Of a stretch of 51,991 nucleotides of DNA, positions 2,885 to 51,991 are shown piece by piece. The notes beneath the pieces were generated by a model that searched no databases, was not told the DNA's origin, and saw nothing but the letters and a program-made list of their open reading frames with translations. The position numbers and the translations under genes are program-made. This DNA is from a virus. The stretch covers positions 1-51,991 of IMG/VR virus record IMGVR_UViG_3300042340_000122; one strand, 5' to 3'. Each line of letters begins with the position of its first letter. The stretch's first letter is position 1.

Positions 2885-3214
2885 TTACTTCCTGCGCTTT
2901 CGATTCCGTTTGGCCTCGCTGGCTGGGTAGTCACCAGTAGCGGCCCCAATTATGCCTCCAGCCGTAGTCATGGCGACTGGCGGAAGGATTCTCATCCCCT
3001 CGTCAAACTTTGGCTTAAATCGCCTGATTGCCCCGCGCCCCGCGCCGTAAGCCAAAGCACCAAGCGCTCCGCCAGCAAGCGTCCTCATGCCAGAGTTGAA
3101 CTCTTCATCCTTTAGCGCGCGCTCCAGTTTCTTTTGCTCCCTTCGGCTCCGAAAAGAGTCCTGTTCGTCAAGCGCTTTATCAAAGATGTCCCGATTGTCT
3201 TCTTTCTTCGCCAT
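2885..3214 (-). CDS. Small RDIF-motif protein (paralog 1)
   Basis: 109 residues. It begins MAKKEDNRDIFDKALDEQD, followed by a charged helix (RSRREQKKLERALKDEEF), two glycine-rich hydrophobic segments (GGALGALAYGAGRGA and TTAGGIIGAATGDY) and a KRNRKRRK C-terminus. The same N-terminal motif and basic tail recur in at least seven other small late genes here. No known family recognised. The glycine-zipper pattern suggests membrane insertion or oligomerisation; the location suggests a minor virion or ejected component. Confidence 0.75.
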   Translation of the reverse strand: MAKKEDNRDIFDKALDEQDSFRSRREQKKLERALKDEEFNSGMRTLAGGALGALAYGAGRGAIRRFKPKFDEGMRILPPVAMTTAGGIIGAATGDYPASEAKRNRKRRK

Positions 3215-3217
3215 AGC

Positions 3218-4327
3218 CTATTTCCTTCTTTTTGGTGCGTTTACGATGGCGTCTTCAATGTCATCGCGTACCGATGCTGTCTTGGGTGTCGTTCCCTTTG
3301 GAAGATCAAAGGGCTTGCGGGGCTTCTTGGGAGGGCGGGGGTTTTCCCACGGCTCGACTGGCTTGCGAGGTGTTACCTTCGCACCCGTTGTCTCTGCTGG
3401 TTTGGCAAACATGCGCTTGATCGCACTGCCCGCCTTTGAAATCACTGGAGCCAAAATCCCACCTCCGATTGCACTTGCTGCCGCGAACGGTGCGATGGAT
3501 TCATCGTCCATCACCGCCTGCGCGCGTTTATCAAACCCACCCTCGGCCTCGCCTGCATCCATGATTGCAAGCGAACCTGCACCAGTGCCAGCAAAACTTG
3601 CTGCACCCTCAGCGGCTCTACCTGCCCCCGTGGCAGCCTCTGCAGGAAGCCCAATCACACGACGCCCGCCCTTGATAACCTTGTCCACGCCCTTTGTAAG
3701 CCCGGAGAAGATGGGGCCTCCAGAGAGAAGGCCTGCCGTGGTCCCCACCACACTGCGGGGGGAAAATGGAGCTTCGTATTGCGCATCTTCTTCCTTGATG
3801 CGACGGGCTTCTTTCAGGTTATCGTCGTATGAGCCTTGACCTGTGATGGCACCCGCTCCAGCCACCACCTCATCATCAAACCCGAGAAGCGGCCATGAGA
3901 GACCATTGAGTATCATTGCCTGATACTTTTCGTTCTCAGGGCGGGGGTCATTCTCATCCGCGTCCGCCATCTGCCAAGTTTCCGGAATCTCAGGCAGGAA
4001 CCATGACATATCGGGGTTGCCGTCCTTGTTGGACTGCTCCCACTTCTTCTTTCTGTATTCGTAAGAGGAACTATCATCAGCGTAGGGATCTTCGTACCCC
4101 ATCCCCTGAAGAACGCTGGACCACCACGACCTGTTATCCTGGTCCGGGTTGTTGGCGTAGTACGTTTCCTTCCGTTCCTTCATGGAGGCTTGGGTAAAGG
4201 GAAGATCAGCGTCGGTAATGGTTCCGTCCTGATACTTCTTGTAGAGAACCCTTGCCTCTTCCGGATGCTGCTCCGCCCACTGGGCGATCTGTTCTTCGCG
4301 CGAGAGTGAGGGCGGTCTGTACGGCAT
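3218..4327 (-). CDS. Ejection-type virion protein with C-terminal RDDI motif
   Basis: 369 residues, starting MPYRPPSLSREEQ. Residues about 150-190 carry LLGFDDEVVAGAGAITGQ followed by a long Gly/Ala-rich hydrophobic stretch. This block is clearly paralogous to the start of the 719-residue protein at 47766-49925 (GLDNALFGFGDEVVAAGGA, LFGQDYDKAL). Phage proteins with this GF.DEV.AG motif are commonly annotated as internal virion or ejection proteins. The C-terminus is Pro/Lys rich and ends SVRDDIEDAIVNAPKRRK, a variant of the RDIF motif plus the KRRK tail. Inference: a virion protein carrying the same targeting or assembly tag as its small neighbours. Confidence 0.7.
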   Translation of the reverse strand: MPYRPPSLSREEQIAQWAEQHPEEARVLYKKYQDGTITDADLPFTQASMKERKETYYANNPDQDNRSWWSSVLQGMGYEDPYADDSSSYEYRKKKWEQSNKDGNPDMSWFLPEIPETWQMADADENDPRPENEKYQAMILNGLSWPLLGFDDEVVAGAGAITGQGSYDDNLKEARRIKEEDAQYEAPFSPRSVVGTTAGLLSGGPIFSGLTKGVDKVIKGGRRVIGLPAEAATGAGRAAEGAASFAGTGAGSLAIMDAGEAEGGFDKRAQAVMDDESIAPFAAASAIGGGILAPVISKAGSAIKRMFAKPAETTGAKVTPRKPVEPWENPRPPKKPRKPFDLPKGTTPKTASVRDDIEDAIVNAPKRRK

Positions 4328-4339
4328 CTACCCTACCCT

Positions 4340-4711
4340 CTAACGACGACGCGGCTTCTTGCGACGCGGCTGCTTGGGAATGACGATCTGGTACTGGCCG
4401 TCCTTGCGCAGCTTGAAAATCACGCCGTCATCGCGACGCATGTGCATTCGGCTGTTGTAGGATAACTGCCACGTTCCAGACCGTTCACTCCACGTGACAG
4501 GTTCGTATGTGCGACCTTCGCTGTCACGGTAGCGCTTAATCTCGCCGCCAAATGTGCGTTCAGGATAAATCTTGACGACCTTGGTCTGGATCTTGGGGCT
4601 CTTCTTTTTCTTTCCAAAGAAACTGGCCGGACCCTTGGCCCCCGTTGAGGCTGCTTTTGTTGTTGTAGATTTTATCGCGCGCTCAAGCGCAAAGCGAACC
4701 CCACTCGGCAT
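4340..4711 (-). CDS. Small basic hypothetical late protein
   Basis: 123 residues, strongly basic. It has a Lys-rich patch (FFGKKKKSPKIQTKVVKIY), a strand-rich middle (RYRDSEGRTYEPVTWSERSG, YQIVIPK) and ends KKPRRR. The start has GGAGTTTAG upstream. It sits four bases after the M23 peptidase gene, in the run of ejection-type genes. No family recognised. The basic tail resembles those of the RDIF paralogs, but the RDIF motif itself is absent. Confidence 0.65.
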   Translation of the reverse strand: MPSGVRFALERAIKSTTTKAASTGAKGPASFFGKKKKSPKIQTKVVKIYPERTFGGEIKRYRDSEGRTYEPVTWSERSGTWQLSYNSRMHMRRDDGVIFKLRKDGQYQIVIPKQPRRKKPRRR

Positions 4712-4714
4712 GGC

Positions 4715-5200
4715 CTAAACTCCTGAATAGTCTTTGTAGAAGAATTGCTTTGGATCAACGGAGCGATTGTCTTTCCGCATCCCGAAGTGAAGGTGAGGGC
4801 CGGTGCTCCTGCCCGTCGTGCCGACATAGCCGAGGATGTCTCCCCGCTTGACCTCGCCGCCCCTCAATCCCTTCTCAGAGACCTTCTTCATGTGAAGGTA
4901 GCGGGTCTGATACCCGTCCGGATGTTTCACTGTGACCTTGTATCCACCAACTGGGTCCGGGGTATTTCCATCCACCCATCCATCTTCGGATGCATAGATT
5001 GGAGTGCCAGGGGAAGCGGCGTAATCAATGCCCTCATGAAGCATTGGCTTCTTCAGGATCGGATGCTCTCTCATGCCATACGGGGAAGAAACGAAGGAAT
5101 CATCGCGAATGGGAACATCCAGATCGGGAGATCCCTTCTTCATCATGGCTTTGACAAAACGCTCACGCGCCGCTCTGGCCTTGATCCCGTTGTATGGCAT
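4715..5200 (-). CDS. M23-family peptidoglycan endopeptidase
   Basis: 161 residues. Zinc-peptidase motifs are complete: HEGID (His55, Asp59), the YLH strand (His103) and TGPHLHFGM (His136, His138), the LytM/lysostaphin signature. After about 35 residues with no signal peptide, SSPYGMREHPIL leads into the catalytic domain. It is coded between small virion genes rather than in the lysis clusters at 40.7-45.1 kb. The likely role is therefore local cell-wall cutting during DNA entry, as a virion-associated lysin. That role is inference; the fold assignment is firm. Confidence 0.9.
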   Translation of the reverse strand: MPYNGIKARAARERFVKAMMKKGSPDLDVPIRDDSFVSSPYGMREHPILKKPMLHEGIDYAASPGTPIYASEDGWVDGNTPDPVGGYKVTVKHPDGYQTRYLHMKKVSEKGLRGGEVKRGDILGYVGTTGRSTGPHLHFGMRKDNRSVDPKQFFYKDYSGV

Positions 5201-5203
5201 GGG

Positions 5204-5494
5204 TTATTTCCGGCGCTTCTTGCCAGCCGGCATCCCGCCCATCTTCTGCCTTGCCACTTCGGCGCCGACCATTCCAATTGCGGCACCAGTTCCGCCGCCA
5301 AGAGTGCGCGCTCCAGCGTTCAGATCAAAATCCCTAAAGGTCCGCTTTGACTTGCCAAACTTGCCCCCGGTAAGACGCGCGCCTAAAGCGCCACCAGCTA
5401 GAGCGCCGACCGTGGTAAACAGCTGCTCGTCATCAAGAATTTTTTCGAACACGTCGCGGTTATCTTCTTTCTTCTTTGCTTTCTCTTTAGCCAT
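5204..5494 (-). CDS. Small RDIF-motif protein (paralog 2)
   Basis: 96 residues. The motif reads KKKEDNRDVFEKILDDEQ after a short basic lead (MAKEKA). Two glycine-zipper segments follow (GALAGGALGARLTGG and GGGTGAAIGMVGAEVA), and it ends GKKRRK. A good AGGAG lies upstream. It is immediately upstream of the M23 peptidase gene. Family without known name; see the separate finding on all paralogs. Confidence 0.75.
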   Translation of the reverse strand: MAKEKAKKKEDNRDVFEKILDDEQLFTTVGALAGGALGARLTGGKFGKSKRTFRDFDLNAGARTLGGGTGAAIGMVGAEVARQKMGGMPAGKKRRK

Positions 5495-5507
5495 TGTACT
5501 TCTCCTG

Positions 5508-5951
5508 TTACCTGCGGCCTCGAGCGGCCTCGCGCTTCATGCGCCCCTCCATGTACGCCTTCTTCAGCATCTGGCCGAAGGGGGTGTTTCCATAAGGGCC
5601 TTCAATGATGGGGCGGATGGCATCGTCGTCGCCATTTACCCCTGCCTGATAAGCCCCCTGGATCATGCGGTCATGCTCTGCGGGGTCTTCAAACACTCCC
5701 GGAAACGCTTCATCCTGAGCTGGGCCTTCACCCGTGCGCTGACGGTTGAAACCGTCCACCGTTGGCTCTCCCGTCTCATAGGGCATCCCCGGGCGCACAC
5801 GCCTTGCACTGGCAGCAGATGGGCCAAAAGACGGGCCCTGAGGCTGGGCGGCGTAGTTCTCCATGCCCATCTCCCCACCTTCACCACCCTCACCGCCTTC
5901 AATTGCGGCGTAAATATCGTCACGCACTGACGGTGGGCGCTTCATTTTCAT
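5508..5951 (-). CDS. Hypothetical late protein with N-terminal RDDI motif
   Basis: 147 residues. Near the N-terminus is PPSVRDDIYAAIEGGEGGEG, matching the SVRDDIEDAI found at the C-terminus of the protein at 3218-4327 and resembling the RDIF motif. The middle is low in predicted structure (Gly, Pro, Gln rich). The end is basic (KKAYMEGRMKREAARGRR). No family recognised. The motif links it to the neighbouring virion proteins. Confidence 0.65.
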   Translation of the reverse strand: MKMKRPPSVRDDIYAAIEGGEGGEGGEMGMENYAAQPQGPSFGPSAASARRVRPGMPYETGEPTVDGFNRQRTGEGPAQDEAFPGVFEDPAEHDRMIQGAYQAGVNGDDDAIRPIIEGPYGNTPFGQMLKKAYMEGRMKREAARGRR

Positions 5952-5967
5952 GTCTGTTTTTCCTGAA

Positions 5968-6324
5968 TTACTTACGAGTTTTTCTTACATAATCTCCGTA
6001 TGCGGCCCCTGCGCCAGCACCAACGCCGGCCCCAGCCAAACTTGCCCCCCTCAATGGGGCATCAATAAACTGCTCTTTGTTTTGTATGTCATTACGCTTT
6101 AGATTCTGTCTAACAGTTGGAGATTTTCCCTTGGAGTAACTCTTTGACTCGGCCAAAAGTTCTTTTCCATAGCGAACAGAATCTCTCGTTTTTTTTGAAA
6201 ACGCTTTTTTTATTGCACGCCCCCCAAATCTTCCAACAACACCACCAACCACAAGCCCGCCAGCGGGGCCAAGGTCATCAACAATCTTGTCGAACACGTC
6301 GCGGTTGTCTTCTTTCTTTGCCAT
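5968..6324 (-). CDS. Small RDIF-motif protein (paralog 3)
   Basis: 118 residues from the ATG at 6324, which has GGAGTTAG upstream; a start four codons earlier is possible. It begins MAKKEDNRDVFDKIVDDLG, then GGLVVGGVVGRFGGRAI, a basic middle, a second glycine segment (GAGVGAGAGAAYGDY) and the end VRKTRK. Its base composition is more AT-rich than its neighbours, with several AAA and TTT runs. It lies just downstream of the head-tail adaptor gene. Confidence 0.72.
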   Translation of the reverse strand: MAKKEDNRDVFDKIVDDLGPAGGLVVGGVVGRFGGRAIKKAFSKKTRDSVRYGKELLAESKSYSKGKSPTVRQNLKRNDIQNKEQFIDAPLRGASLAGAGVGAGAGAAYGDYVRKTRK

Positions 6325-6326
6325 GT

Positions 6327-7025
6327 CTAACTCCAAGTTCCTTCAGGAATCCTGCCGCGCCCCAACCCCTGGAGCGTTGGGCCTACTGCATTGAGTTTGC
6401 GCCTCGTTCCATCGCGCGCAATGATCTTTGACTTTTCACGCTCGTACTCATCAAAGCGCTGCGTGTAGTCGAGACCCTTTGCCTCCAACCAGCGCCAGAC
6501 AACGCCGAGGGTCAGGAGGTGCTCGGATATCCTCCCCGTATCGCTATCAGCCGCCCATGCAGATTGGGCAGTTCCACCAGACGATTGGCACCATTTGTTG
6601 CTTACGTACTCGTAGTAGATGGATTGGCCGGCGGTTGGGGTCGGGAGGAAGTAAAACGAATTCCCCCTGATCCGGTATTGGCTCCAGACGGTTGAAACCA
6701 CCTGAGCCTTCTGCGCCTGCCAGCTTTGGGATGTGAGGGGTCCATAGACTGGATCAGTTGTTGACCTATTCCACAGCGTCTCGTTGATGATGCGGTCCAG
6801 GTCTGTCGGAAGCGTATGGCTGGTCTGCTCTTCCGTCGCCACTGTCGTGAACGAGGTTTCAGTCACCAAAGCCTGCCAGTCATGCTCACGCATCAACACA
6901 TCCCCGGTCATGTTGCTCAGGGCGAGGAGTTGTCTCTGCGTCTCTCCCGTGTTGCTGTAGACCGTGGTCGTGACAGGCAAGTTCAACATTGCCTGTGCAC
7001 GGTTTATGATGGAGAGCAAAGACAC
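6327..7025 (-). CDS. Head-tail adaptor / tail tubular-like protein
   Basis: 232 residues. The opening (SLLSIINRAQAMLNLP), MTGDVLMREHDWQALV, HTLPTDLDRIINETLW and YYEYVSNKWC, then a helical C-terminus (DEYEREKSKIIARDG), match phage proteins of the P22 gp4/T7 gp11 adaptor group that bind below the portal. The order in this genome (portal, capsid, adaptor, stabilisation protein) supports this. The assignment is by pattern recognition; it could also be described simply as a virion neck protein. Confidence 0.65.
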   Translation of the reverse strand: MSLLSIINRAQAMLNLPVTTTVYSNTGETQRQLLALSNMTGDVLMREHDWQALVTETSFTTVATEEQTSHTLPTDLDRIINETLWNRSTTDPVYGPLTSQSWQAQKAQVVSTVWSQYRIRGNSFYFLPTPTAGQSIYYEYVSNKWCQSSGGTAQSAWAADSDTGRISEHLLTLGVVWRWLEAKGLDYTQRFDEYEREKSKIIARDGTRRKLNAVGPTLQGLGRGRIPEGTWS

Positions 7026-7028
7026 TGG

Positions 7029-7289
7029 CTAGCCTCCACGCGGCTTCGGAAACAGCGCCTTGCGGAGAGGATTGTTCGCCTCCAGCGCCTTTTCGAACAC
7101 GTCGCGCGTATCAAGGGGATTTACTACCTTGATGGGCTTGCGCATCGGTCCGGTCTTCTGAGAGGGGCGGTACGGCATGGTCTTGGCCGTTCCACCCATT
7201 CCCGGCTTATAGGGCATCGTTTTGGTCGTGCCCGTCCCCGGCTTGTACGGCATCTTGGCGTAATCGCCGGGTCGCATTGTGTTGGCCAT
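7029..7289 (-). CDS. Small repeat protein with RDVF motif (paralog 4)
   Basis: 86 residues from the ATG at 7289. It has three short repeats, MPYKPGTG, MPYKPGMG and MPYRPSQK, separated by TKT and AKT linkers. After these comes NPLDTRDVFEKALEANNP, the family motif, here near the C-terminus instead of at the start. There is no glycine-zipper segment. Longer starts would overlap the gene at 7294. The MPY repeat echoes the N-termini of several neighbours (MPYRP, MPYNG, MPYIP). Function unknown. Confidence 0.65.
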   Translation of the reverse strand: MANTMRPGDYAKMPYKPGTGTTKTMPYKPGMGGTAKTMPYRPSQKTGPMRKPIKVVNPLDTRDVFEKALEANNPLRKALFPKPRGG

Positions 7290-7293
7290 GTTC

Positions 7294-7647
7294 TTACGAA
7301 GCCACGGTAGGAATGGTGTGGCACGCCGTACCGCTCGAGAAGAACACCACAACGCTCTTGGCCGTCGCCATGGAAAGCGACGTGGTGGCGTTGATGGTCG
7401 CACCCGTGGGCGGGTAGAGGGTCAAGGTCGATCCGCTTTCATTCTTGATGAGGTAGGTGTCGCCCTTGTCCGAAGCCGGCAGGATCATCCCGCCTGATCC
7501 GGATGCCATAAGGACCAACTCACCCGTGATCTTTGCCGCATCCGTGGCGCTCGATCCCGCTGCCGCGAGGGACTGAACCTCCCCAACCGTGGCAACTGCC
7601 TGAAGCGCCGAAACGCCCGAGTTCATCAACTTCTTCTGCCTAGCCAT
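7294..7647 (-). CDS. Small virion protein, decoration-like
   Basis: 117 residues with a GAAGGAG ribosome site. It is Ala/Gly/Ser/Thr rich with a beta-rich C-terminal half (TYLIKNESGSTLTLYPPTGA, SVVVFFSSGTACHTIP). This pattern is common in small capsid-associated proteins that read like a trimming or decoration domain. It sits between the adaptor and a coiled-coil late gene. Virion role inferred from context. Confidence 0.6.
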   Translation of the reverse strand: MARQKKLMNSGVSALQAVATVGEVQSLAAAGSSATDAAKITGELVLMASGSGGMILPASDKGDTYLIKNESGSTLTLYPPTGATINATTSLSMATAKSVVVFFSSGTACHTIPTVAS

Positions 7648-7653
7648 ATTACT

Positions 7654-8283
7654 TTACTCCTTCGCCTTCCTGGCTCTTGGTTCAACCGTGGTTTCGGATT
7701 CTCGGTCCTTAACCGCTTGCACAAGCTGTTCCATCTGGTTCTGCATGAGCTCCAGACGCTGCTTCAGTTCCCTGTTTTCCACTTCGAGTTTGGCAATCGG
7801 GGCCGCGCTCTTTGCACTTTCGATAAATGCCTTTGCCTTCTCGCGCATATCGCGCAGGCCAATGGCCCCAGGCTTGGAAATCGAGCTATCGCTCAGTGCG
7901 GCTAGCTGCTGGACAGTGAACACGTTCATGTACTCCAGAGCCTTGGCCATCTCGGTCGGGATTAGCGGCCAGAGGGAAAGGGGAATTCCATCTCCAATCA
8001 TGTCCGGATTGATGCGCTTGGACTTCCACATCGCGTATTCATTGGGAAACTGGTCCTTGACGCCCTGCGTCACGCGCTTGACGGGAGAGTTTCCCTTGTC
8101 CCCTGCGATCAGGAGTTCGACAAACTCAATTGTGCGAAATACGGGGAGCCCATTCTCATCAATCTCGTTGGTCTTCTTTGTTTCTTCAAAGAAGCGCGGC
8201 GTGATGTGCGCCATGTTGTCCTTCTTCGGCATTCTCTGCTGAAGAGCGACGCGGTCGTGCAATTCCATATTGTCAAAAGACAT
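7654..8283 (-). CDS. Late protein with C-terminal coiled coil
   Basis: 209 residues. The first half has VFRTIEFVELLIAGDKGNSP and a PLSLWPLIPTEMAKALEYM region, then NVFTVQQLAALSDSSI (a small helix-hairpin-helix-like segment). A heptad coiled coil follows at about 160-195 (KLEVENRELKQRLELMQNQM) with a basic end. Similar proteins occur in the capsid region of podovirus-like phages and are annotated hypothetical. A head assembly role is plausible but not shown. A GAAGGAAG site precedes the ATG. Confidence 0.65.
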   Translation of the reverse strand: MSFDNMELHDRVALQQRMPKKDNMAHITPRFFEETKKTNEIDENGLPVFRTIEFVELLIAGDKGNSPVKRVTQGVKDQFPNEYAMWKSKRINPDMIGDGIPLSLWPLIPTEMAKALEYMNVFTVQQLAALSDSSISKPGAIGLRDMREKAKAFIESAKSAAPIAKLEVENRELKQRLELMQNQMEQLVQAVKDRESETTVEPRARKAKE

Positions 8284-8344
8284 TGGATCTTCCTTCTGTA
8301 CTTTAAGACTTCCGCCGGAATTGGCGGAGTGGTCTTGAGGCTAG

Positions 8345-8524
8345 TTAAATGCGAAAGACCTTCTCGAACACATCGCGTGTGTCTTGGTCTGGGGTGGGGG
8401 CGATAATCAGTCGCCGCCTCTCACGCAGGATCTGGTCCGGCCCTGATTCAATGGGTGGTCTTGGCTTTGGTCTTGGAGCAGGAACCGGACGCTTGGGCGC
8501 GGGTTTCTTCGGAGCCTGTTTCAT
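8345..8524 (-). CDS. Tiny Pro/Lys-rich RDVF-motif protein (paralog 5)
   Basis: 59 residues. The N-terminal half is a Pro/Lys/Arg-rich run (KKPAPKRPVPAPRPKPRP). After ERRRLIIAPTPDQ comes DTRDVFEKVFRI, the family motif, placed at the very C-terminus. It starts three bases after the stop of paralog 6, so the two are tandem copies of the motif in different settings. Easily missed because of its length. The motif is the main support for it being real. Confidence 0.6.
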   Translation of the reverse strand: MKQAPKKPAPKRPVPAPRPKPRPPIESGPDQILRERRRLIIAPTPDQDTRDVFEKVFRI

Positions 8525-8527
8525 GTG

Positions 8528-8782
8528 TTACTTGCGGCGCTTACTTTTGTTGATGTCATTTTTGATTGCCGCGCCAGCAAACCCGCCTGCCGTTGCGCCA
8601 TACATTCCGGCTAATCCTGCCTGTGCGGCAGATGAAGTTCTACCGCTACCCTCACTCCTGCCAATTTTGTACATCTTGCGTCCAGCAAGCGAGCCACCCA
8701 GCACGGCTCCAATTAATGGAGCGTTGTCCAATGCTTTTTCAAAGATGTCTCGATTGTCTTCTTTGCGCTTTTTCTCAGCCAT
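8528..8782 (-). CDS. Small RDIF-motif protein (paralog 6)
   Basis: 84 residues from the ATG at 8782, with AAGGTGAAGG just upstream; the GTG three codons earlier is less likely. It begins MAEKKRKEDNRDIFEKALDN, then GAVLGGSLAGRKM, a second glycine-zipper (GLAGMYGATAGGFAGAAI) and ends KSKRRK. The typical architecture of the family: motif, two hydrophobic Gly segments, basic tail. Confidence 0.75.
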   Translation of the reverse strand: MAEKKRKEDNRDIFEKALDNAPLIGAVLGGSLAGRKMYKIGRSEGSGRTSSAAQAGLAGMYGATAGGFAGAAIKNDINKSKRRK

Positions 8783-8787
8783 AACCT

Positions 8788-9027
8788 TCACCTTTCAATC
8801 TCGGGAGAGCCGACAACCACCTGCGTCGCAGGTCCACGCTGCGCCCACTCTCCGCACCACTCGGCCTCTTTTGTCCAAGGCCATGAACCCACCCAGATAT
8901 CCCGCTTGGAATCTATGCAGCGGGAAGACGTTTCCGGCTTTCCAACCCGGCACCGCCCCCACTTGATGGATTGGATATCTACCTTTTCATTCCCCCAATA
9001 ACGGCAGGATGAGCAGTTTTCTGACAT
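8788..9027 (-). CDS. Small cysteine-rich protein, probable zinc binder
   Basis: 79 residues from the ATG at 9027, which has GAGG upstream. Cysteines are arranged as CSSCRYW at the N-terminus, then GRCRVGKP, CIDSKRD and EWCGEWAQRG. Small phage proteins of the type C..CR.W...G.C......WCGE.. are common and usually unassigned; metal binding is likely. Located between the large glycosyltransferase fusion and RDIF paralog 6. Confidence 0.65.
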   Translation of the reverse strand: MSENCSSCRYWGNEKVDIQSIKWGRCRVGKPETSSRCIDSKRDIWVGSWPWTKEAEWCGEWAQRGPATQVVVGSPEIER

Positions 9028-9038
9028 CGCTATATCCC

Positions 9039-11117
9039 TCAATGTGAAAGCCGACGCTCGGCCTCGTCTGCATACTCAAGGGGCGCGAACACATCGTCGC
9101 GCATCAGGCGTGCGATCTTTCGATACCCGTGCTCCGCCATGAACGAGGGAAGCATTCCTTCCGAGCCTGAAAGGCCATCAAGGCCCTTGTTCTCACAGAC
9201 AATCAGGGGCCTGTTGATCTTCACTGTCTCGGATGCCCCATACAGAGCCGGACCTTCCATCCCCTCAATATCAAGGTAGATGAGGTCAACGTTTTGGGGT
9301 CCGAGATGGTCAATCACTATTACCGGAATTGTAGGAACTCCATCAAGGTCAATCCCGATCGACCCTGTGTTGTTCTTGTCCCGAACCGAGAGGGCGATCT
9401 TTCCCTCTTCATTCCCGATAGCGGCCTGATGAATAGTGACGTTATCTGCCCTCACATTCCGAACCAGGCACTTGAAGTTGGTGGGGTCAGGCTCAAACGT
9501 CCATACATCGTCAAACACGAGTGACATTGTATTTGCGAATATTCCAACATGCCCACCGGCTTGAATTGCTGTCCTGCGCTTACCCTCCGGAAGAGCATCC
9601 ACAACCCGCTTGATCTTCCAGACTTCATCCAGAACGGCGGGGACGGATACGCGGTCTTCTACCGGACGCCATAACTCATCAAAGAGAACGATATCGCCCT
9701 CGACAACGCACGGTTTGTTTCTCTCTTCGGCGAGTTTCTGAGATACCCAACCGAGGAGACCGGAGCAATGCACATGGATCTCACAATCCATGCGAGCCAG
9801 CTCATCAGAAAGCCCCATGAAGTCCTCAACCTGCCGGATCATCCAGCTAGCGGCTTTGAACTTTCGACCTTCCACATTCACATCAATCCGCGCATCCCGG
9901 TCATTCTCGGGCTGTGAATAGGCGTGGTGGTCCATGTCCTCGAAGGATGAATCCATGCCGAAGATATGGATGGTTCTGAACCCAAGCGCATAGGCTCCAC
10001 ACAGGGCTTTCATGCCTACTGTGGTTCCGCCTCCAACCAAGGTGTATTCTTTGTCTTTAGGCAGAAACTCATCGCACGTGGCTTCGTGCCAGAGGATGAT
10101 GTCCCTACCCTTAGCTGCCTCGAACACTGACGGATGACATTGGGAGGCGATATAGTGCGTCCACTCACCCCCACAGAACCGGGCGTTCACATCTCGAGCG
10201 TCTACGATCCATTGCCCGTCTACCTCAATACCGTTTTCGGTAAGGTAGTGAGCCGCGCCATTCAGAGCCCAGATAACTTGGCCCGCTCTGGCGCGCAGTT
10301 TCAGTTCTTCAAGGTTATGCTTGAGAGATGGGCCACCGCCCACAATGCAGACTGATTTATCGTTTGCTTCCGTCTGCTTCAGTTCGGGTAAGCCCAAACC
10401 CAAAGCGTGAGATACATTCGCCCTCAGTGCATCCATCTCGGTATTGCACCGAACGAGGATCTCAAGAGAACCTACCCCACCGATCTTCCACACATCCGGA
10501 ACCCATCCGAAGTGCACATCGTGCGGCCTTGGTTCCCCGTGAAACACAACAACGCGCGATCCCTTGGGTGGATACTTCTGGCAATGAACCTTGTAGCTCA
10601 CAAAGGATTCGGGAAAGAGGCTTTGGAGACTGTCGGGATTAGATCTCTTTTCGATCCAGGATTGATCTCCGCCCAAGTCATGGGTTGGATATCCCGCAAT
10701 TCGATACTCTTCCCATAGGTGAGTTCCGAACCCGGCTTTCCATGTCATCACTGAGGACTGAAACCCGCCCGGGCGATAGAAATCATCCAGCATGGCAAAT
10801 TCACTCGAACACTGAACGATCTCATCCAGAGCGGAGAGGACCAGCGTGTCCAAGTCAAAGAATACAATTCGGTCTCCAGAGGGAAACAGGCCGGGCGAGA
10901 AAAGCCATAACTTGTTCCACCAGCCCTCCAGTCCGTCTGGGAGAGGTCTTGTGACTACTCCTTCCGAATACCCCAAGTCAGGATCATCGGTGAAGCAGAC
11001 GAATTCACCCTCGGTTCCTTCCGCCAGATTGCGGATGACCATATCGTGTAACTTGTTGACGTACTCAGCCCCCCGGCCAAGGTAGTTACCCTTCTGCACG
11101 CAGACGATGTGAAGCAT
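9039..11117 (-). CDS. Three-domain glycosyltransferase / DUF115 / FkbM methyltransferase fusion
   Basis: 692 residues. Residues about 1-215 are a GT-A type glycosyltransferase: IVCVQKGNYLGRGAEYVN, a FFDLDTLV metal motif (Asp88, Asp90) and VVFHGEPRPHD near 190-200. Residues about 255-460 look like DUF115 (MptE/Maf-like): SVCIVGGGPSLKHNLEELK, ALNGAAHYL, GGGTTVGMKAL, IHIFGMDSSF. Residues about 515-690 are an FkbM-family methyltransferase: AIQAGGHVGIFA, FEPDPTNFKCL, YLDIEGMEGPAL. Start chosen at 11117 because a terminator hairpin fills 11135-11168; a TTG at 11177 is also open. Likely role: building a sugar decoration on virion protein, DNA or host glycan. Substrate unknown. Confidence 0.85.
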   Translation of the reverse strand: MLHIVCVQKGNYLGRGAEYVNKLHDMVIRNLAEGTEGEFVCFTDDPDLGYSEGVVTRPLPDGLEGWWNKLWLFSPGLFPSGDRIVFFDLDTLVLSALDEIVQCSSEFAMLDDFYRPGGFQSSVMTWKAGFGTHLWEEYRIAGYPTHDLGGDQSWIEKRSNPDSLQSLFPESFVSYKVHCQKYPPKGSRVVVFHGEPRPHDVHFGWVPDVWKIGGVGSLEILVRCNTEMDALRANVSHALGLGLPELKQTEANDKSVCIVGGGPSLKHNLEELKLRARAGQVIWALNGAAHYLTENGIEVDGQWIVDARDVNARFCGGEWTHYIASQCHPSVFEAAKGRDIILWHEATCDEFLPKDKEYTLVGGGTTVGMKALCGAYALGFRTIHIFGMDSSFEDMDHHAYSQPENDRDARIDVNVEGRKFKAASWMIRQVEDFMGLSDELARMDCEIHVHCSGLLGWVSQKLAEERNKPCVVEGDIVLFDELWRPVEDRVSVPAVLDEVWKIKRVVDALPEGKRRTAIQAGGHVGIFANTMSLVFDDVWTFEPDPTNFKCLVRNVRADNVTIHQAAIGNEEGKIALSVRDKNNTGSIGIDLDGVPTIPVIVIDHLGPQNVDLIYLDIEGMEGPALYGASETVKINRPLIVCENKGLDGLSGSEGMLPSFMAEHGYRKIARLMRDDVFAPLEYADEAERRLSH

Positions 11118-11134
11118 GTAGTGTTCCGGAGGGA

Positions 11135-11168
11135 GGAAAAGAGAGGGGCGAGCCTCATGACCCGCCCC
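11135..11168 (-). terminator. Rho-independent terminator before the glycosyltransferase fusion
   Basis: On the minus strand GGGGCGGGT pairs with GCTCGCCCC around a CATGAG loop (11168-11145, nine pairs with two G-T), followed by TCTCTTTTCC. It would end transcripts coming from the decoration gene at 11182. The fusion gene downstream would then be expressed weakly, by read-through or from an unseen promoter. Confidence 0.6.
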
Positions 11169-11181
11169 GTTACTCAAGTGC

Positions 11182-11688
11182 TTACGTAGCTGTTTCGATA
11201 GCCGGGCGGTTGATAAGCACCGTCACGGTCGAAGTAGCCGAGGCCACCGTGGTCAGGTTGGCAGAGCGAGCGCCAACAATGCCCTTGCCCGTGGAGGCAG
11301 TGGCATAGACGCGACCAGCCGTGCCCGACAGCCACAAGCCGGAAGATGGCGAAACCGCCACCGCCGTCTTCTTGATAACTGCCATACCCGAGATCTGATA
11401 CCAGCCGTACTGGCTGGCAACGTTCGCCGACATGGCAACCGCGAGCGGAGCACCGTCCGTGGTGGCGTTGGTCGGAGACAGGGTGGTCTGGAAGGTTGTG
11501 GCGCTGTAGGTAACGAGCGAACCCACTACCGTTGAGGCAACGCCCAGCAGGTAGATGAATTCACCGCCACCGCCGCCCGTGGCCGTGTCACGCGCGCGGA
11601 CGATAGTGCCGAGCGGGTGGTTCTGCACCGTGTCGGTCGCGGCGATCAGCTGCCCGCCGATGAGTGGATCAGTTACAATATAAGGCAT
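11182..11688 (-). CDS. Capsid decoration-like virion protein
   Basis: 168 residues, starting MPYIVTDPLIGGQLIAATD after a strong AGGAGG. It is Ala/Thr/Gly/Val rich with few charges; TIVRARDTATGGGGGEFIYL and YGWYQISGMAVIKKTAV resemble small head-decoration proteins of marine and rhizobial phages. It lies directly downstream of the capsid gene apart from the homing-endonuclease insertion. That is the usual place for a capsid-stabilising protein. Confidence 0.65.
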   Translation of the reverse strand: MPYIVTDPLIGGQLIAATDTVQNHPLGTIVRARDTATGGGGGEFIYLLGVASTVVGSLVTYSATTFQTTLSPTNATTDGAPLAVAMSANVASQYGWYQISGMAVIKKTAVAVSPSSGLWLSGTAGRVYATASTGKGIVGARSANLTTVASATSTVTVLINRPAIETAT

Positions 11689-11700
11689 TGAGCCCTCCTA

Positions 11701-11725
11701 AAAGAAAAGGGCCCCAAAGGGCCCG
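11701..11725 (-). terminator. Rho-independent terminator after the homing endonuclease
   Basis: Minus-strand GGGCCCTTTGGGGCCC forms a six-pair GC stem with a TTTG loop (11725-11710), then TTTTCTTTT. It lies between the HNH-type gene and the decoration gene, overlapping the leader of the latter. Confidence 0.7.
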
Positions 11726-11728
11726 TTG

Positions 11729-12370
11729 TCATGAAGAGCCGCGCCTGGTTCTTGGCGCGACCGGAGTTGTAAGAGTTCTTTCGACCGTCCATCCCTTACT
11801 GAGACGCCATCCAATGTGTTTGGATGGTATCCCAGTTCGGTCGGCCCAATCTGCCCACGACAATGTTGCGCCGTTCCACTCAAGCATTGGAGTATTCCGC
11901 TTGTTTCGCTGCTGGCCACTTCTCGTTGACCACCTGCAATTTTCTGGGCCGTAGTTTCCGTTGACATCCGTTCTATCAAGGGACGAACCTTCCGGTCGCT
12001 GCCCCATGTCAGAAACAAACGCATCGTAACTAGCGACCCATCGCGGATCGACACGAATTCCCCGTCCACCGTATCGCCAATAATCTGGCGAATTCGGGTT
12101 CAGGCATCGCTGCAGCATCGACTCCCAAGACTTGAATGTCTTGGTTCCTGTTTGGCCATGAAGTGTGACCTGCTCTTTGTGGTAGCAGCCACACGACTTG
12201 CTTTTTCCAGATGTCAGGCTCCCTGCTTTCACAAGGCGCTTTGTGCCGCACGAACAGGTGCATGGCCAGCAGATTTCTCCACGGGCATTTGCCTCTGTCG
12301 GCCCTTCTCCAACAGTCCACCTACCGAAGATTTGTCCGGTCAGGTTTAGCTTGTGCTGTGATCTAGCCAT
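11729..12370 (-). CDS. HNH-type homing endonuclease (free-standing)
   Basis: 213 residues from the ATG at 12370 (GGAGGCG upstream). The first 70 residues have a small zinc-ribbon-like part (CPC-type spacing CTCSCGTKR, KSKSCGCYHKEQ). Then come SWESMLQRCLNPNSPDYW, YGGRGIRVDPRW and SLDRTDVNGNYGPENCRW, a signature of phage HNH/AP2-type endonucleases. The C-terminal 40 residues (WNGATLSWADWADRTGIP, KHIGWRLSKGWTVERTL) are a DNA-binding helix-turn-helix repeat. It is inserted between major capsid and decoration genes, a typical intergenic homing site. Confidence 0.8.
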   Translation of the reverse strand: MARSQHKLNLTGQIFGRWTVGEGPTEANARGEICWPCTCSCGTKRLVKAGSLTSGKSKSCGCYHKEQVTLHGQTGTKTFKSWESMLQRCLNPNSPDYWRYGGRGIRVDPRWVASYDAFVSDMGQRPEGSSLDRTDVNGNYGPENCRWSTRSGQQRNKRNTPMLEWNGATLSWADWADRTGIPSKHIGWRLSKGWTVERTLTTPVAPRTRRGSS

Positions 12371-12416
12371 TGACGCCTCCAAAGAAGCGCCAATGTACTA
12401 AATCACTGAACTATAC

Positions 12417-12433
12417 GCAACGATCATCGTTGC
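12417..12433. repeat. Perfect 8-bp inverted repeat between capsid stop and homing endonuclease
   Basis: GCAACGAT, one base, then ATCGTTGC. It lies just past the major capsid stop codon and ahead of the endonuclease gene, with no T-tract to make it a standard terminator. It could be the tail of the capsid transcript, a regulatory hairpin, or part of the insertion junction. Confidence 0.6.
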
Positions 12434-12436
12434 ACA

Positions 12437-13402
12437 TCAGGCCACTATGACGCCCTGCAACGAGCGGTTGCTGCAGGTCAAATTTCCCGCCCACCCAATA
12501 AGTTTCACCATCGCATCCTGGTTCACGCTAAACCGATCCGCGCCCATCGGAACCATGTTACGGTCACGATGCGGGCGGAACTTGATGTAGTTCGTGTTCA
12601 GGAAGTACATGTGAGCGCTCGGAGCGGTGCCCGAGAAACCACCATCGTACACAACATCCGCGCCCATGAACTTCAGGGTCTGGAAGCCGGCAGATGCCAT
12701 CTTCTCATCGGTCACGCGCTGGATGGCCTGAAGGGACTTCCAGTAGTAACCGAAATACGTGTTGTCCGCGACGATGAGGTCGGGAACATCACGGTTGCGG
12801 GAGATGGAGAGGTACAGCGAGTTCATCGCGTCCTGGATCGTCAGGGCAGAAGCCGCAACGCCATTGGCCGAGAAGTCATACACCGCGTTCTGCCAGAAAG
12901 AGTACGTGGAGGAGTTGATGCCACCCACCGTGCCCGTACCAGCGTCCGAGACCAGAAGCTGCAGACCACCGATCTGCTTGCCCCCTGTTCCCGTCCCATC
13001 CGAATAGACGCCCGTGCTGAGGTTGTTTAGCATGGTCTTTTCGGCGTTCTTGATGCGGGATTCGAGGAGGTCGATAACCTTCTCACGACCCGAGTTCTTC
13101 AGAAGCTCAAGACCGTTGATCTTGACGGCAACAGCCGCCTGCTTCCACTCGTACTCTGCCGAGGTGAAGACATCCGAACTTGCGACGTTCAGAGTTTCAT
13201 CGCCGGAGTAGTACATGAACGTCGAGTTTTCTGCGTACTCGAGTTCTTCCACGATGGATCGACCACCGGAAACCGGGGCGATGTTTTCCTTGTCCTGAAG
13301 GCGGGACAGGAGAGCAATGTTCTTCGACATGTTGTCACGGAGCTTGCCGCTGCGATAGCGCAAGGTGGTCGTGACGATTTCGTCCAAACCGGGACTAGCC
13401 AT
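12437..13402 (-). CDS. Major capsid protein
   Basis: 321 residues. MASPGLDEIVTTTLRYRSG starts a standard phage coat family, with EELEYAENSTFMYYSGDE, SAEYEWKQAAVAVKINGLE, SRIKNAEKTMLNNLSTGVYS, IQDAMNSLYLSISRNRDVPD, DLIVADNTYFGYYWKSLQ and NTNYIKFRPHRDRNM. These are HK97-fold coat features of podovirus-like and related phages. It is preceded by the scaffold and followed by the decoration protein. A GAGGTAAC ribosome site precedes the ATG. Confidence 0.88.
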   Translation of the reverse strand: MASPGLDEIVTTTLRYRSGKLRDNMSKNIALLSRLQDKENIAPVSGGRSIVEELEYAENSTFMYYSGDETLNVASSDVFTSAEYEWKQAAVAVKINGLELLKNSGREKVIDLLESRIKNAEKTMLNNLSTGVYSDGTGTGGKQIGGLQLLVSDAGTGTVGGINSSTYSFWQNAVYDFSANGVAASALTIQDAMNSLYLSISRNRDVPDLIVADNTYFGYYWKSLQAIQRVTDEKMASAGFQTLKFMGADVVYDGGFSGTAPSAHMYFLNTNYIKFRPHRDRNMVPMGADRFSVNQDAMVKLIGWAGNLTCSNRSLQGVIVA

Positions 13403-13429: not shown

Positions 13430-14500
13430 TCAGAGAAGACCGGATGAGGACGCTTCAAGAAGCTGCCTCAAGTTCATCCCCTCGGCTGATTGCTCGCCGT
13501 ACATGCCTGACGCTCCACTTATGCTTGATGCCGCCATGCGGGCCTCCTCGGCTCTCATCCTCTGGGAGCGGTTTTCCCGGGCTCGGGATTGCGCCAGAAG
13601 TTTCGAGCGTGTGTAGGGATTGGCCCACTTGGCTCTCTCATAAGCCTCGTGGATGGTCGAAGCGCGTCCTGACTCGATTTCAATCGCCATATCTTCTTCA
13701 AGTTCATTGAAGTATGGATAGGCAGGCTTTCCATCTGGTCCGGTCTGGCTTGCGAAATTCTCAATATTCTCATTCGTTACATTGAACGCCTGAGCATACT
13801 GTTGTTGCTGCTGCAACTGCTGCGCCTGCTGTTGCGCCTGCATGGTTTGGTTCAGTTGGGCCTGAACGCCTGCAAGGTGCTGACGCAGCGTAGCGACTTG
13901 CGGATCGACGTATTCTTCCTCCTGACGCTGGTTCAGTTGGTTGAGGTCAATGCCGCGAAGATTGGAGAAATACTGGATAAACTCTATCGGGGAGTTTGTT
14001 GCGTAGTCGGAGAGGGCGATAAGCTGCTGCATGGCTTGGGCCGGGCCCATGCCGTTCAACGCCCACTTCTGGACATGAGGGGAAATAACCCGCTCCATCT
14101 CCTGATAGCCCTGGCGAACCTTGGCTATCTCCTGTGTCTTGCGTGTGTAGTCCGCCATCATGTGACGGGCTCGGTCGAGGTAAGCGTGCTGTAAGGCAGG
14201 GGGCAATTCCTTGAAGAACTGCTGCTCCTGCTGCGGCCAGTTGGCGGGCGGGTCAATGGGGCCTAGTTGGTCCTCATCGTCCTCTTCCTCGTCACCTTCC
14301 TCGTCTACCTCTTCCCCGTCTTCGTCGTCCTCATCGGAAGCGTCGAGTTCTTCCTCGCCCTCTTCCTCTAGGTCGTCTTCCTCAGTTTCGAATTCATCTT
14401 CGTCATCCGGGTTTTCGATTTCCGGGGCGAAATTGTCGTCGTCGCCTCCCAGAACGTCAACTTCTTCCGTGGCGTCGTAACTGTCGCGCGGACCTGCCAT
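13430..14500 (-). CDS. Scaffolding protein
   Basis: 356 residues. Residues about 12-75 are almost entirely Asp/Glu, an acidic arm. The middle is helical with Gln-rich stretches (LRQHLAGVQAQLNQTM, QQQAQQLQQQQQYAQAF). The C-terminal part is basic and helical (YTRSKLLAQSRARENRSQRM). Position just upstream of the capsid gene, helical content and charge asymmetry fit a capsid scaffold. Confidence 0.8.
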   Translation of the reverse strand: MAGPRDSYDATEEVDVLGGDDDNFAPEIENPDDEDEFETEEDDLEEEGEEELDASDEDDEDGEEVDEEGDEEEDDEDQLGPIDPPANWPQQEQQFFKELPPALQHAYLDRARHMMADYTRKTQEIAKVRQGYQEMERVISPHVQKWALNGMGPAQAMQQLIALSDYATNSPIEFIQYFSNLRGIDLNQLNQRQEEEYVDPQVATLRQHLAGVQAQLNQTMQAQQQAQQLQQQQQYAQAFNVTNENIENFASQTGPDGKPAYPYFNELEEDMAIEIESGRASTIHEAYERAKWANPYTRSKLLAQSRARENRSQRMRAEEARMAASSISGASGMYGEQSAEGMNLRQLLEASSSGLL

Positions 14501-14571: not shown

Positions 14572-14889
14572 TCAGCCCTTGTAACGATGCTCTTCCATGG
14601 CCCGCACGATGTCGTGCACGGGGTTGGAAGGCGGGATGTATTTCTGCTGGACGTTCTCGTTTCCAACCTCAACCAGCCCTCTGGATTTGAGGAAGTCGCG
14701 ATGCTGTTTCCTTCCCCCGATGACGGACCCATCCACCACTGACTTGTAGGGATCGATGTCCTTCACGATCTGGAGTCCGATCTTGTCTTCGCCCTTGCGC
14801 TTTCGATAGTGATCCATGCACGCCGAGGGCCAAGGTTCCTCAAGGTCATGCCATCCTTTGCACACGTCGCAGTGTCTGGCTCTCGCCAT
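14572..14889 (-). CDS. Small zinc-finger-like late protein
   Basis: 105 residues. The N-terminal CDVCKGWHDLEEPWPSAC looks like a zinc-binding knuckle. Then IDPYKSVVDGSVIGGRKQHRDFLKSRG and LVEVGNEN follow, a pattern found in a conserved phage family located near capsid genes. Function not established. The ATG overlaps the stop of the gene at 14889-15167 (TAATG). Confidence 0.7.
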   Translation of the reverse strand: MARARHCDVCKGWHDLEEPWPSACMDHYRKRKGEDKIGLQIVKDIDPYKSVVDGSVIGGRKQHRDFLKSRGLVEVGNENVQQKYIPPSNPVHDIVRAMEEHRYKG

Positions 14890-15167
14890 TATTTGCGCCT
14901 CTTTTTTCTTTCTTCGCTTCTCGTTTCACCGACATACCCAACTGGAAGACCAGCCATTCCGCCAGCCATTGCTCCCTTAAATCCTTCGTCCCCATACACT
15001 TTGCGGCCCGCTAGTTTTTTGGCTTTTCTAAATGCCCGGCCAGCAAGGCCACCAACAAGCATGCCGCCAATCAACGATGTGGGTCCGTTGACATACCCGC
15101 TATCAAGAGCCTTATCGAAGATATCGCGCGTATCTTCCTTGGCTTTGTACTTTTCTTGCTTACCCAT
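14889..15167 (-). CDS. Small RDIF-motif protein (paralog 7)
   Basis: 92 residues with AGGAGA upstream. After MGKQEKY comes KAKEDTRDIFDKALDSG, then GPTSLIGGMLVGGLAGRAF, a basic patch, a second glycine segment (GAMAGGMAGLPVGYVG) and the end RKKRRK. This copy is about 6 kb from the others, between the coiled-coil virion gene and the zinc-finger gene, showing that the family is scattered through the late region. Confidence 0.75.
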   Translation of the reverse strand: MGKQEKYKAKEDTRDIFDKALDSGYVNGPTSLIGGMLVGGLAGRAFRKAKKLAGRKVYGDEGFKGAMAGGMAGLPVGYVGETRSEERKKRRK

Positions 15168-47517: not shown

Positions 47518-47769
47518 ATGAGTTACCGAGAGATTTATGCGGTCTGCATCTACGCCTGCATGATGCTCCTCGCGGGAGCCTTCGGCGGTATCTCGGGGAT
47601 CATTCTGATGAATATGGGGTTTTGGATTAGCGCCATCGATCTGGGATGGATCGACGATTGGTATGAAGAAAACCCGAAGGGGGAGGAAGTGGTCTTGAAT
47701 GAGGAAAGCGGGGAGGAACCCCCGCTCCCCGATAATGTCATCCGCCTTCCGGTGAGGAAGTTCGGCTAG
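47518..47769 (+). CDS. Small membrane protein, second moron
   Basis: 83 residues. Membrane segments AVCIYACMMLLAGAFGGISG and IILMNMGFWISAIDLGW, then an acidic tail (EENPKGEEVVLNEESGEEPP) and VIRLPVRKFG. GAAGGAAATAG lies upstream. It is on the plus strand between two minus-strand virion genes. Its stop shares a CTAG with the stop of the convergent 47766 gene. Possible superinfection-exclusion or host-membrane protein; function unknown. Confidence 0.65.
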   Translation: MSYREIYAVCIYACMMLLAGAFGGISGIILMNMGFWISAIDLGWIDDWYEENPKGEEVVLNEESGEEPPLPDNVIRLPVRKFG

Positions 47770-51596: not shown

Positions 51597-51923
51597 TTAC
51601 TTGCGGCGCTTGTTCTCGTAGCCATAGATTCCACCAGCGGCGCTTCCAGCAGCCCCGCCAATAATCGACCCCTTGAAAACTCTATCGTCCGCACGATCCA
51701 GCAGCCGCTTATCGCCACCAGAGCCCCATCCGTTCGAACCATCCTTTGAAGCGCGCCTCTCTGCCCTAGCCTCGGCCCGACGTGCTTTCTTCCCCGCCAT
51801 TCTCTTGCCGATAATTCTGCCGCCAAGAACCCCGAGCGCCGTCCCGACAACCACCCCCTGCTCGGCGTTCAAATCTAGGGCCTTGTCGAAGATGTCCCGA
51901 TTGTCTTCTTTCTTCTTGCTCAT
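51597..51923 (-). CDS. Small RDIF-motif protein (paralog 8)
   Basis: 108 residues: MSKKKEDNRDIFDKALDLNA, then GVVVGTALGVLGGRIIGKRM, a basic middle (KKARRAEARAERRASK), a second glycine segment (GSIIGGAAGSAAGGIYGY) and the end ENKRRK. The best-formed member of the family. Overlaps the stop of the gene entering from the right edge (ATGGGATGAGC). Confidence 0.75.
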   Translation of the reverse strand: MSKKKEDNRDIFDKALDLNAEQGVVVGTALGVLGGRIIGKRMAGKKARRAEARAERRASKDGSNGWGSGGDKRLLDRADDRVFKGSIIGGAAGSAAGGIYGYENKRRK

Positions 51924-51991
51924 CCCATACCTCCAAATGCCTTGCGCATGATCGCTTCAATCAGGACTTGGCGCTTTCGATCATCTTCCGG
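51920..51991 (-). CDS. C-terminal end of a gene entering from the right edge
   Basis: 23 codons are visible: PEDDRKRQVLIEAIMRKAFG then GMG and TGA. The stop overlaps the start of RDIF paralog 8. It could be the C-terminus of the gene that leaves at the left edge if the molecule is circular, but the two ends do not join in frame. Confidence 0.55.
   Translation of the reverse strand, partial: PEDDRKRQVLIEAIMRKAFGGMG

Follow-up and report, generated by a model that had tools for sequence, protein, structure and literature searches.

How small internal proteins enter the head of short-tailed phages is mostly unknown so far, and the viral DNA analysed here (IMG/VR record IMGVR_UViG_3300042340_000122, positions 1 to 51,991; hereafter the window, 51,991 nucleotides in full) raises this question in a concrete form. 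Eight proteins encoded among its late genes, all on the minus strand, share a short tag with the consensus E/D-[NT]-R-D-[IV]-F-[DE]-K-[AIV]-[LVF], here called the RDIF form, which stands at the N-terminus of some of them and at the C-terminus of others. The window comes from a podophage of the Mx8/Pr lineage, in which terminase, portal, major capsid protein (MCP), tail and lysis-type genes were recognised. An original prediction, made from the DNA letters alone, had taken the motif for a movable docking or packaging tag. Our analyses appear to trace the origin of the tag to the ends of the probable phage scaffold and thereby strengthen this idea; by kind, the element would be a capsid-targeting or scaffold-mimic motif. 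With moderate confidence we favour the reading that a portable motif, copied from the scaffold end, serves as a procapsid entry signal for the proteins that bear it.

The eight genes, and likewise two carriers of a variant motif, SVRDDI, lie where the original prediction had put them. The eight members of the RDIF form are:

2885..3214, minus strand: tagged protein of 109 amino acids, N-terminal EDNRDIFDK at 3176-3202, basic KRRK tail.
5204..5494, minus strand: tagged Gly-zipper protein of 96 amino acids, N-terminal EDNRDVFEK at 5441-5467, KRRK tail.
5968..6324, minus strand: tagged Gly-zipper protein of 118 amino acids, N-terminal EDNRDVFDK at 6286-6312, RKTRK tail.
7029..7289, minus strand: Pro-rich protein of 86 amino acids, C-terminal DTRDVFEKALE (RDVFE at 7092-7106).
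8345..8524, minus strand: Pro/Arg-rich protein of 59 amino acids, C-terminal DTRDVFEKVFRI (RDVFE at 8363-8377).
8528..8782, minus strand: tagged Gly-zipper protein of 84 amino acids, N-terminal EDNRDIFEK at 8735-8761, KRRK tail.
14889..15167, minus strand: tagged Gly-zipper protein of 92 amino acids, N-terminal EDTRDIFDK at 15111-15137, KRRK tail.
51597..51923, minus strand: tagged Gly-zipper protein of 108 amino acids, N-terminal EDNRDIFDK at 51882-51908, KRRK tail, located in the internal-virion-protein module.

The six N-terminal carriers (2885, 5204, 5968, 8528, 14889 and 51597) open with K-E-D-[NT]-R-D-[IV]-F-[DE]-K-[AI]-[LV], and in their alignment the near-identical tags are followed by diverged Gly/Ala-rich segments and, last, by the basic tail, which is KRRK in five of the six and RKTRK in 5968, in agreement with the predicted KRRK or RK endings. 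Only two members of the RDIF form carry the tag at the C-terminus, 7029 with the reading LDTRDVFEKALEA and 8345 with the reading QDTRDVFEKVFRI-stop. The pattern originally given, E-[DN]-[NT]-R-D-[IV]-F-[DE]-K-[AIV]-[LV], describes the N-terminal six, but its leading E fails for these two C-terminal copies. The two short hydrophobic Gly/Ala stretches that had been described between tag and tail are present in most members, but not in all. The probable start codon is ATG for 7029-7289 and also for 5968-6324, where a TTG lies upstream.

The RDIF family is real and conserved. A tag profile of 14 columns, built from the same main copies of the window and its relatives that were later scored with it, gave 31.5-48.7 bits on these copies, and the highest-scoring of 14,495 reversed open reading frames (ORFs) reached 13.1. 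As the main copies outscore every reversed ORF, the RDIF tag is not a product of chance. Where tag residues are identical, 51% of the comparisons also show the same codon, and codon usage would predict 46%; therefore it is the peptide that is conserved, and an origin of the tag as a recent DNA repeat is ruled out. In searches of PHROGs and Pfam with the tagged proteins, no family was found beyond the generic Gly-zipper, and the small tagged proteins had no match to an ejection protein, which agrees with the earlier remark that no such family had been described. The Pfam family Gly-zipper_Omp, a low-complexity domain, exceeded its cut-off of 25 only for 5968 (25.9) and 51597 (27.6), the match of 5204 being sub-threshold.

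For comparison we used metagenomic viral contigs with an MCP 78-98% identical to that of the window, plus others found via the tag or via tubeB (cited below by L numbers). The RDIF family also occurs in these relatives, with up to five RDIF tags per contig. The tag is found beside virion genes across their late operons: after TerL, around the MCP gene, in the interval from tubeA to tubeB, and within the module of internal proteins. The tagged genes thus lie inside the late operon, at sites that differ between relatives and on other small proteins. We found no RDIF form in the cultured relatives, no match of 51597 by tblastn in 50,697 phage records, and no member of the tag family in the bacterial genomes searched. 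The SVRDDI form is more widespread than the RDIF form in the relatives, and the relative with 78% MCP identity (L012/L105) has the SVRDDI form only, within the stretch seen. Examples of terminal tags of this form are MSTVRDDIKRAM in L101:3324, GSVRRDIERAM in L095:3788, SSVRDDMKKAM in L105:9726 and, at the C-terminus of L101:8706, GSVRGDIERALSSKGRRR. In the window, the SVRDDI carriers and the proteins with possible weaker tags are the following, with p-values from a scaffold profile that is described further below:

3218..4327, minus strand: protein of 369 amino acids with a C-terminal scaffold-like tag, SVRDDI at 3257-3274, p=0.002.
5508..5951, minus strand: protein of 147 amino acids with an N-terminal scaffold-like tag, SVRDDI at 5913-5930, p=0.002.
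4340..4711, minus strand: basic protein of 123 amino acids, N-terminal SGVRFALERAI (4673-4705), p=0.08 alone.
4715..5200, minus strand: M23-type metallo-endopeptidase (peptidoglycan hydrolase; peptidase family match), possible weak tag RERFVKAM at 5144-5167.
51923..51991, minus strand: late protein cut by the window edge, its C-terminal end reading RKRQVLIEAIMRKAFGGMG, a possible weak C-terminal tag.

The variant sits at the ends that had been predicted, as SVRDDIEDAI near the C-terminus of 3218-4327, directly ahead of NAPKRRK, and as SVRDDIYAAI near the N-terminus of 5508-5951. In the M23 peptidase, RERFVKAM has the shape of a tag, but its scaffold-profile score is not significant. The edge-cut protein at the right window end, which terminates RQVLIEAIMRKAFGGMG, has an intact homolog in L092. 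The proteins of 3218-4327 and 47766-49940 have a domain in common (ILNGL..L.GF.DEVVA.G.. and then YD..L), which suggests a duplicated ejection-like domain.

The two forms of the tag replace each other in corresponding genes. In the Pro-rich protein encoded before tubeA, a family assigned by position and Pro-rich character, the tag near the end reads DTRDVFEKAL in the window and DTRDVFEKAF in L092, but STVRDDLMKAI in L101 and VSVRDDISKAI in L095, and a short tail follows it in each; more generally, the genes at the position of 7029-7289 in relatives bear an SVRDD[IL] tag instead. Exchange is also seen in the homologs of 5508 and 4340, which were assigned by position and similarity, the closer ones being matched by BLAST. 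At the N-terminus of the 5508 homologs, the window has SVRDDIYAAI and L101 has SIRSDIERAA, and the corresponding residues are NYDIWDKIRG in L005 and GRDIWDRVNG in L103. The 4340 homologs begin with SGVRFALERAI in the window, GSVRESIFKAI in L005, SGVRKAIYKAI in L018 and SVRTAILKAL in L103, and in L088 and L094 with NRDVWEKAL, followed by a Gly/Ala-rich segment. Gly-zipper/KRRK proteins also occur with the other form, as SIREDIGKAL in L101 and GVRKAIEKSL in L095, and two proteins (L011:11496 and L088:2953) carry tandem tags in which TSVRKDIEKSV is directly followed by DDRDIFEKAL. It is mainly because of these swaps and tandem copies that we regard RDIF and SVRDDI as the same tag. That the tags form a family, move between ends and between proteins and swap within orthologs can be read directly from the sequences, as can the agreement of the SVRDDI form with scaffold ends that follows.

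The gene order of the window is TerL, portal, small Cys-rich protein, scaffold-like gene, MCP, p50-like, tubeA, tubeB and GNAT-like, and it equals that of Myxococcus phage Mx8, Bradyrhizobium phage ppBjS10J-1 and Stenotrophomonas phage BUCT555 (the Mx8/Pr podovirus lineage and the names tubeA and tubeB follow PMC10386132). The head genes needed here are:

12437..13402, minus strand: MCP (phrog_9953, E=6e-112), the proposed binding partner of the tag.
13430..14500, minus strand: probable scaffold of 356 amino acids, located between portal and MCP, with a fitting AlphaFold2 (AF2) shape.
14572..14889, minus strand: Cys-rich (Zn-ribbon-like) protein of 105 amino acids beside the scaffold gene, motif score p=0.05.

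By its position between the portal and MCP genes, just upstream of the latter, and by its predicted shape, 13430-14500 is probably the scaffold gene. The AF2 model (21 homologs) predicts an acidic disordered N-terminus, long helices and a disordered linker (residues 329-343), after which a separate C-terminal helix (residues 344-352, about 13445-13471) corresponds to the motif, in a block with a predicted local distance difference test (pLDDT) score of about 81. In dozens of relatives, the C-terminal approximately 20 residues of the scaffold contain S-[IVL]-[RE]-[DE]-D-[IL]-x-x-A-[FWM] or a near form, for example TSVRGSLEAAW in Mx8, GSIRGDLMRAM in L025, GSIEDDIRAAF in L060 and MSVGDTLRAAF in L105. 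The motif can also stand near the scaffold N-terminus, as in Mx8 (VSLRESLAAA), L157 (VSLRDAIEGAF) and L048 (PSIRDLLSDAF). A further probable scaffold, L111:4080-5384, has clear copies at each end, ESLRDVIVSAFK and LTLRQELERAFA.

The scaffold profile has 12 columns and was built only from scaffold C-termini of lineages whose MCP is less than 75% identical to that of the window. Counting one representative per protein family and terminal scores of 9 or more, it matched 16 of the 237 protein families of the tag clade at a terminus, with one interior match; reversed sequences gave 3 and shuffled termini 1.6 +/- 1.1, with a maximum of 6. One of the 16 is the L105 scaffold, and an antisense ORF in L002 and the terminal match in window gene 42889 are apparently due to chance. 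Of 41 distinct scaffolds, 25 have a second, N-terminal copy (p<0.05 each). Among 42 prophage scaffolds taken from bacterial genomes as an independent set, 30 had the copy at the C-terminus and 21 had one at the N-terminus. Because of these second copies near the N-termini, either end of the scaffold can bear the motif, as is the case in the tagged proteins; homologous sequences are not independent, and combined p-values therefore need caution. When compared with the scaffold profile, the SVRDDI copies of the putative cargo align best in register (p=0.0004, for a cargo list that was partly gathered using the scaffold profile). The identity of the SVRDDI form with the scaffold-end motif is thus, at the level of sequence comparison, well supported, and the link of the RDIF form to the scaffold is weaker. 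Outside the clade, the Cys-rich protein encoded between portal and scaffold has the motif at p<0.05 in 9 of 19 distinct copies, including the C-terminal RRQDIARAI of Mx8 p46, and a Pro-rich protein encoded after p50 in L023, L024 and L025 has GSVRGDILAAI. In the control phages, terminal scaffold-profile matches were found in 2 of 70 P22 genes and 1 of 74 lambda genes, and none of these genes had an RDIF match. The N-terminus of P22 (L256) gp16 (11484-13313, p=0.002) and the C-terminus of gp14 (8911-9366, p=0.02) also score on the scaffold profile, which may be chance; we set these scores aside, because they are two out of 12 tests and the scaffold of P22 has hardly any score of its own.

As the tag resembles both ends of the probable scaffold, it probably loads about a dozen otherwise unrelated small proteins into the newly forming particle. 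In known scaffolds (P22, 80alpha, HK97 and herpesviruses), the coat-binding region is at the C-terminus (PMC12005531, PMC5644958), and in 80alpha this end consists of an 11-residue amphipathic helix plus a hook (PMC5644958). By analogy, the end helix of the scaffold, held on its flexible linker, would bind a site inside the growing shell during assembly, most likely on the coat protein, possibly on the portal or on the scaffold itself, and proteins that bear an equal short helix at either end would occupy such scaffold-end sites and become enclosed. Besides the small basic-tailed Gly-zipper proteins, the enclosed cargo would comprise proteins that are Pro-rich or basic, one large ejection-like protein and possibly the M23 peptidase. 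The cargo would then probably be kept in the mature head and exit with the DNA as internal (ejection) proteins, as we infer from the neighbours (the M23 peptidase, the Gly-zipper proteins, and the relation of 3218-4327 to 47766-49940) and from the module in which 51597 lies. The earlier description as small ejected membrane proteins is too narrow, because several of the tagged proteins are Pro-rich or basic and not membrane-like, and the DNA-entry channel that had been suggested for them gained no support from our analyses. More tentatively, and as a possibility that we rate a little short of even, the motif may constitute a natural encapsidation code, in which a scaffold motif of ~12 residues, borne by ten or more unrelated proteins at either end and freely exchanged between genomes, would load any newly acquired protein into the virion.

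Several observations weigh against the entry-signal reading. The scaffold C-termini of the window clade have drifted from the consensus (MNLRQLLEASS or MSTRQLLEAAS; NLRQLLEASSS), its scaffold has no clear N-terminal copy, and the cargo tags of the clade resemble the scaffolds of other lineages more than its own scaffold ends. No Pfam or PHROGs family names 13430-14500 a scaffold, a profile comparison with P22 gp8 detected no similarity, and fold and sequence searches against solved structures gave no match. In the comparison of RDIF with the scaffold (column-permutation p=0.015), the top alignment is shifted and the expected register comes second, most RDIF copies miss p<0.02 on the scaffold profile, and the comparison of RDIF with the cargo SVRDDI profile, although its top alignment is in register, is weak (p=0.04, column permutation). 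The AF2 model of the tagged protein 51597 is poor (pLDDT 56), with a first helix that begins within the tag, and no cultured member of the tag clade was found in our searches.

Part of this evidence would suit a different explanation, namely that RDIF marks an ordinary duplicated gene family and resembles scaffold ends by chance, as one short amphipathic helix may resemble another: the scaffold profile matches RDIF weakly, and short helical motifs match easily, as the isolated terminal matches in P22 gp16 and gp14 illustrate. We nevertheless consider this improbable, as the tag also stands at the C-terminus of unrelated proteins and swaps with SVRDDI in orthologs, and the SVRDDI form matches scaffold ends far beyond shuffles. 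Similarly improbable in our view is that the tagged Gly-zipper proteins are late proteins of the host membrane (assembly anchors, holin-like or exclusion proteins) which remain unpackaged and whose tag recruits procapsids or scaffold. Their hydrophobic Gly/Ala stretches and basic tails would suit membrane hairpins, and a scaffold-like tag could recruit capsid precursors as well, but several bearers are Pro-rich or polar (5508, 8345, 7029, L101:3324 and L017:11087), and six to eight separate anchors or holins per genome would be odd. Somewhat more credible than these two, yet still unlikely, is a tag whose docking site is the portal or the body of the scaffold instead of the coat, with equal enclosure through a different contact. 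Scaffold-docked ejection proteins have been proposed for P22, at the inner end of the scaffold column (PMC12005531), and a motif at both scaffold ends would also suit end-to-end scaffold contacts, whereas in the best precedents (80alpha, P22 and herpes simplex virus) a terminal scaffold helix contacts the coat. We therefore retain the procapsid entry signal, with the coat as the most likely partner.

Among known systems, the capsid targeting sequence (CTS) of phage T4 is N-terminal, unlike the tag described here, which stands at either end (C-terminal copies in 7029, 8345 and 3218) and also differs in resembling the probable scaffold's own ends. In T4, a short tag brings diverse internal proteins into the prohead, and, as in the IPI-III proteins of T4, a single conserved short tag is combined here with otherwise different proteins (PMC3012670). 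General library scans of the late genes found no prohead protease or cleavage site and recognised no protease among the genes scanned. SaPI1 encodes CpmB, whose C-terminal coat-binding motif is also that of the 80alpha scaffold (the RIIK helix-and-hook), and the ends are interchangeable by experiment (PMC5644958). A second protein with the scaffold's terminal motif is likewise what we find, although here the match is at the level of the lineage and weaker against the window's own scaffold end; CpmB is a single satellite-encoded competing scaffold that changes capsid size, whereas in the present phage the late operon itself encodes many small proteins of diverse kinds, with the motif at one end or the other. 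In P22 virus-like particles, cargo fused to the C-terminal part of the scaffold (residues 141-303 or 238-303) is enclosed (PMC9962691), so that, as proposed here, foreign proteins enter the shell once they are joined to the scaffold part that holds the coat-binding end; that system is engineered and uses 65-160 residues, whereas the present one would be natural and use about 12. The small Gly-rich proteins also resemble the ejection proteins of P22 and T7 in lying in the same module of a P22-like podophage with a peptidoglycan hydrolase gene nearby, but the latter are few, larger and without a common tag, and have no sequence match to the small tagged proteins.

The tubeA and tubeB genes are adjacent in Mx8, ppBjS10J-1 and BUCT555; seven genes lie between them in the window, five of which are clearly tagged (2885, 3218, 5204, 5508 and 5968). 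The window record is linear, and both its left and its right end lie inside the internal-virion-protein module. Within the capsid gene cluster, 9039-11177 encodes a 712-residue protein that by eye looks like a glycosyltransferase or FkbM-methyltransferase-type fusion, and L105 and L017 have different sugar-related-looking genes at this site. A 217-residue ORF at 11729-12382, which separates the capsid gene from the head gene that comes next, is, by eye, probably an HNH-type homing endonuclease. In L015, L095, L088, L100, L013, L017 and L018, inserted stretches, some of them with ORFs, interrupt the major capsid gene, apparently at two recurring sites (after ...SDVFTAAEF and after ...SAHMYF), and no Rfam intron family was detected at threshold in these insertions.

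If the entry-signal reading is true, a class of unannotated small late proteins would be explained by a single rule, namely that the motif of the internal proteins is the motif of the scaffold ends, and the engineered cargo loading of P22 would have a natural counterpart with a much shorter tag. A tag that can be read from the sequence would then permit the prediction of internal virion proteins in uncultured phages.

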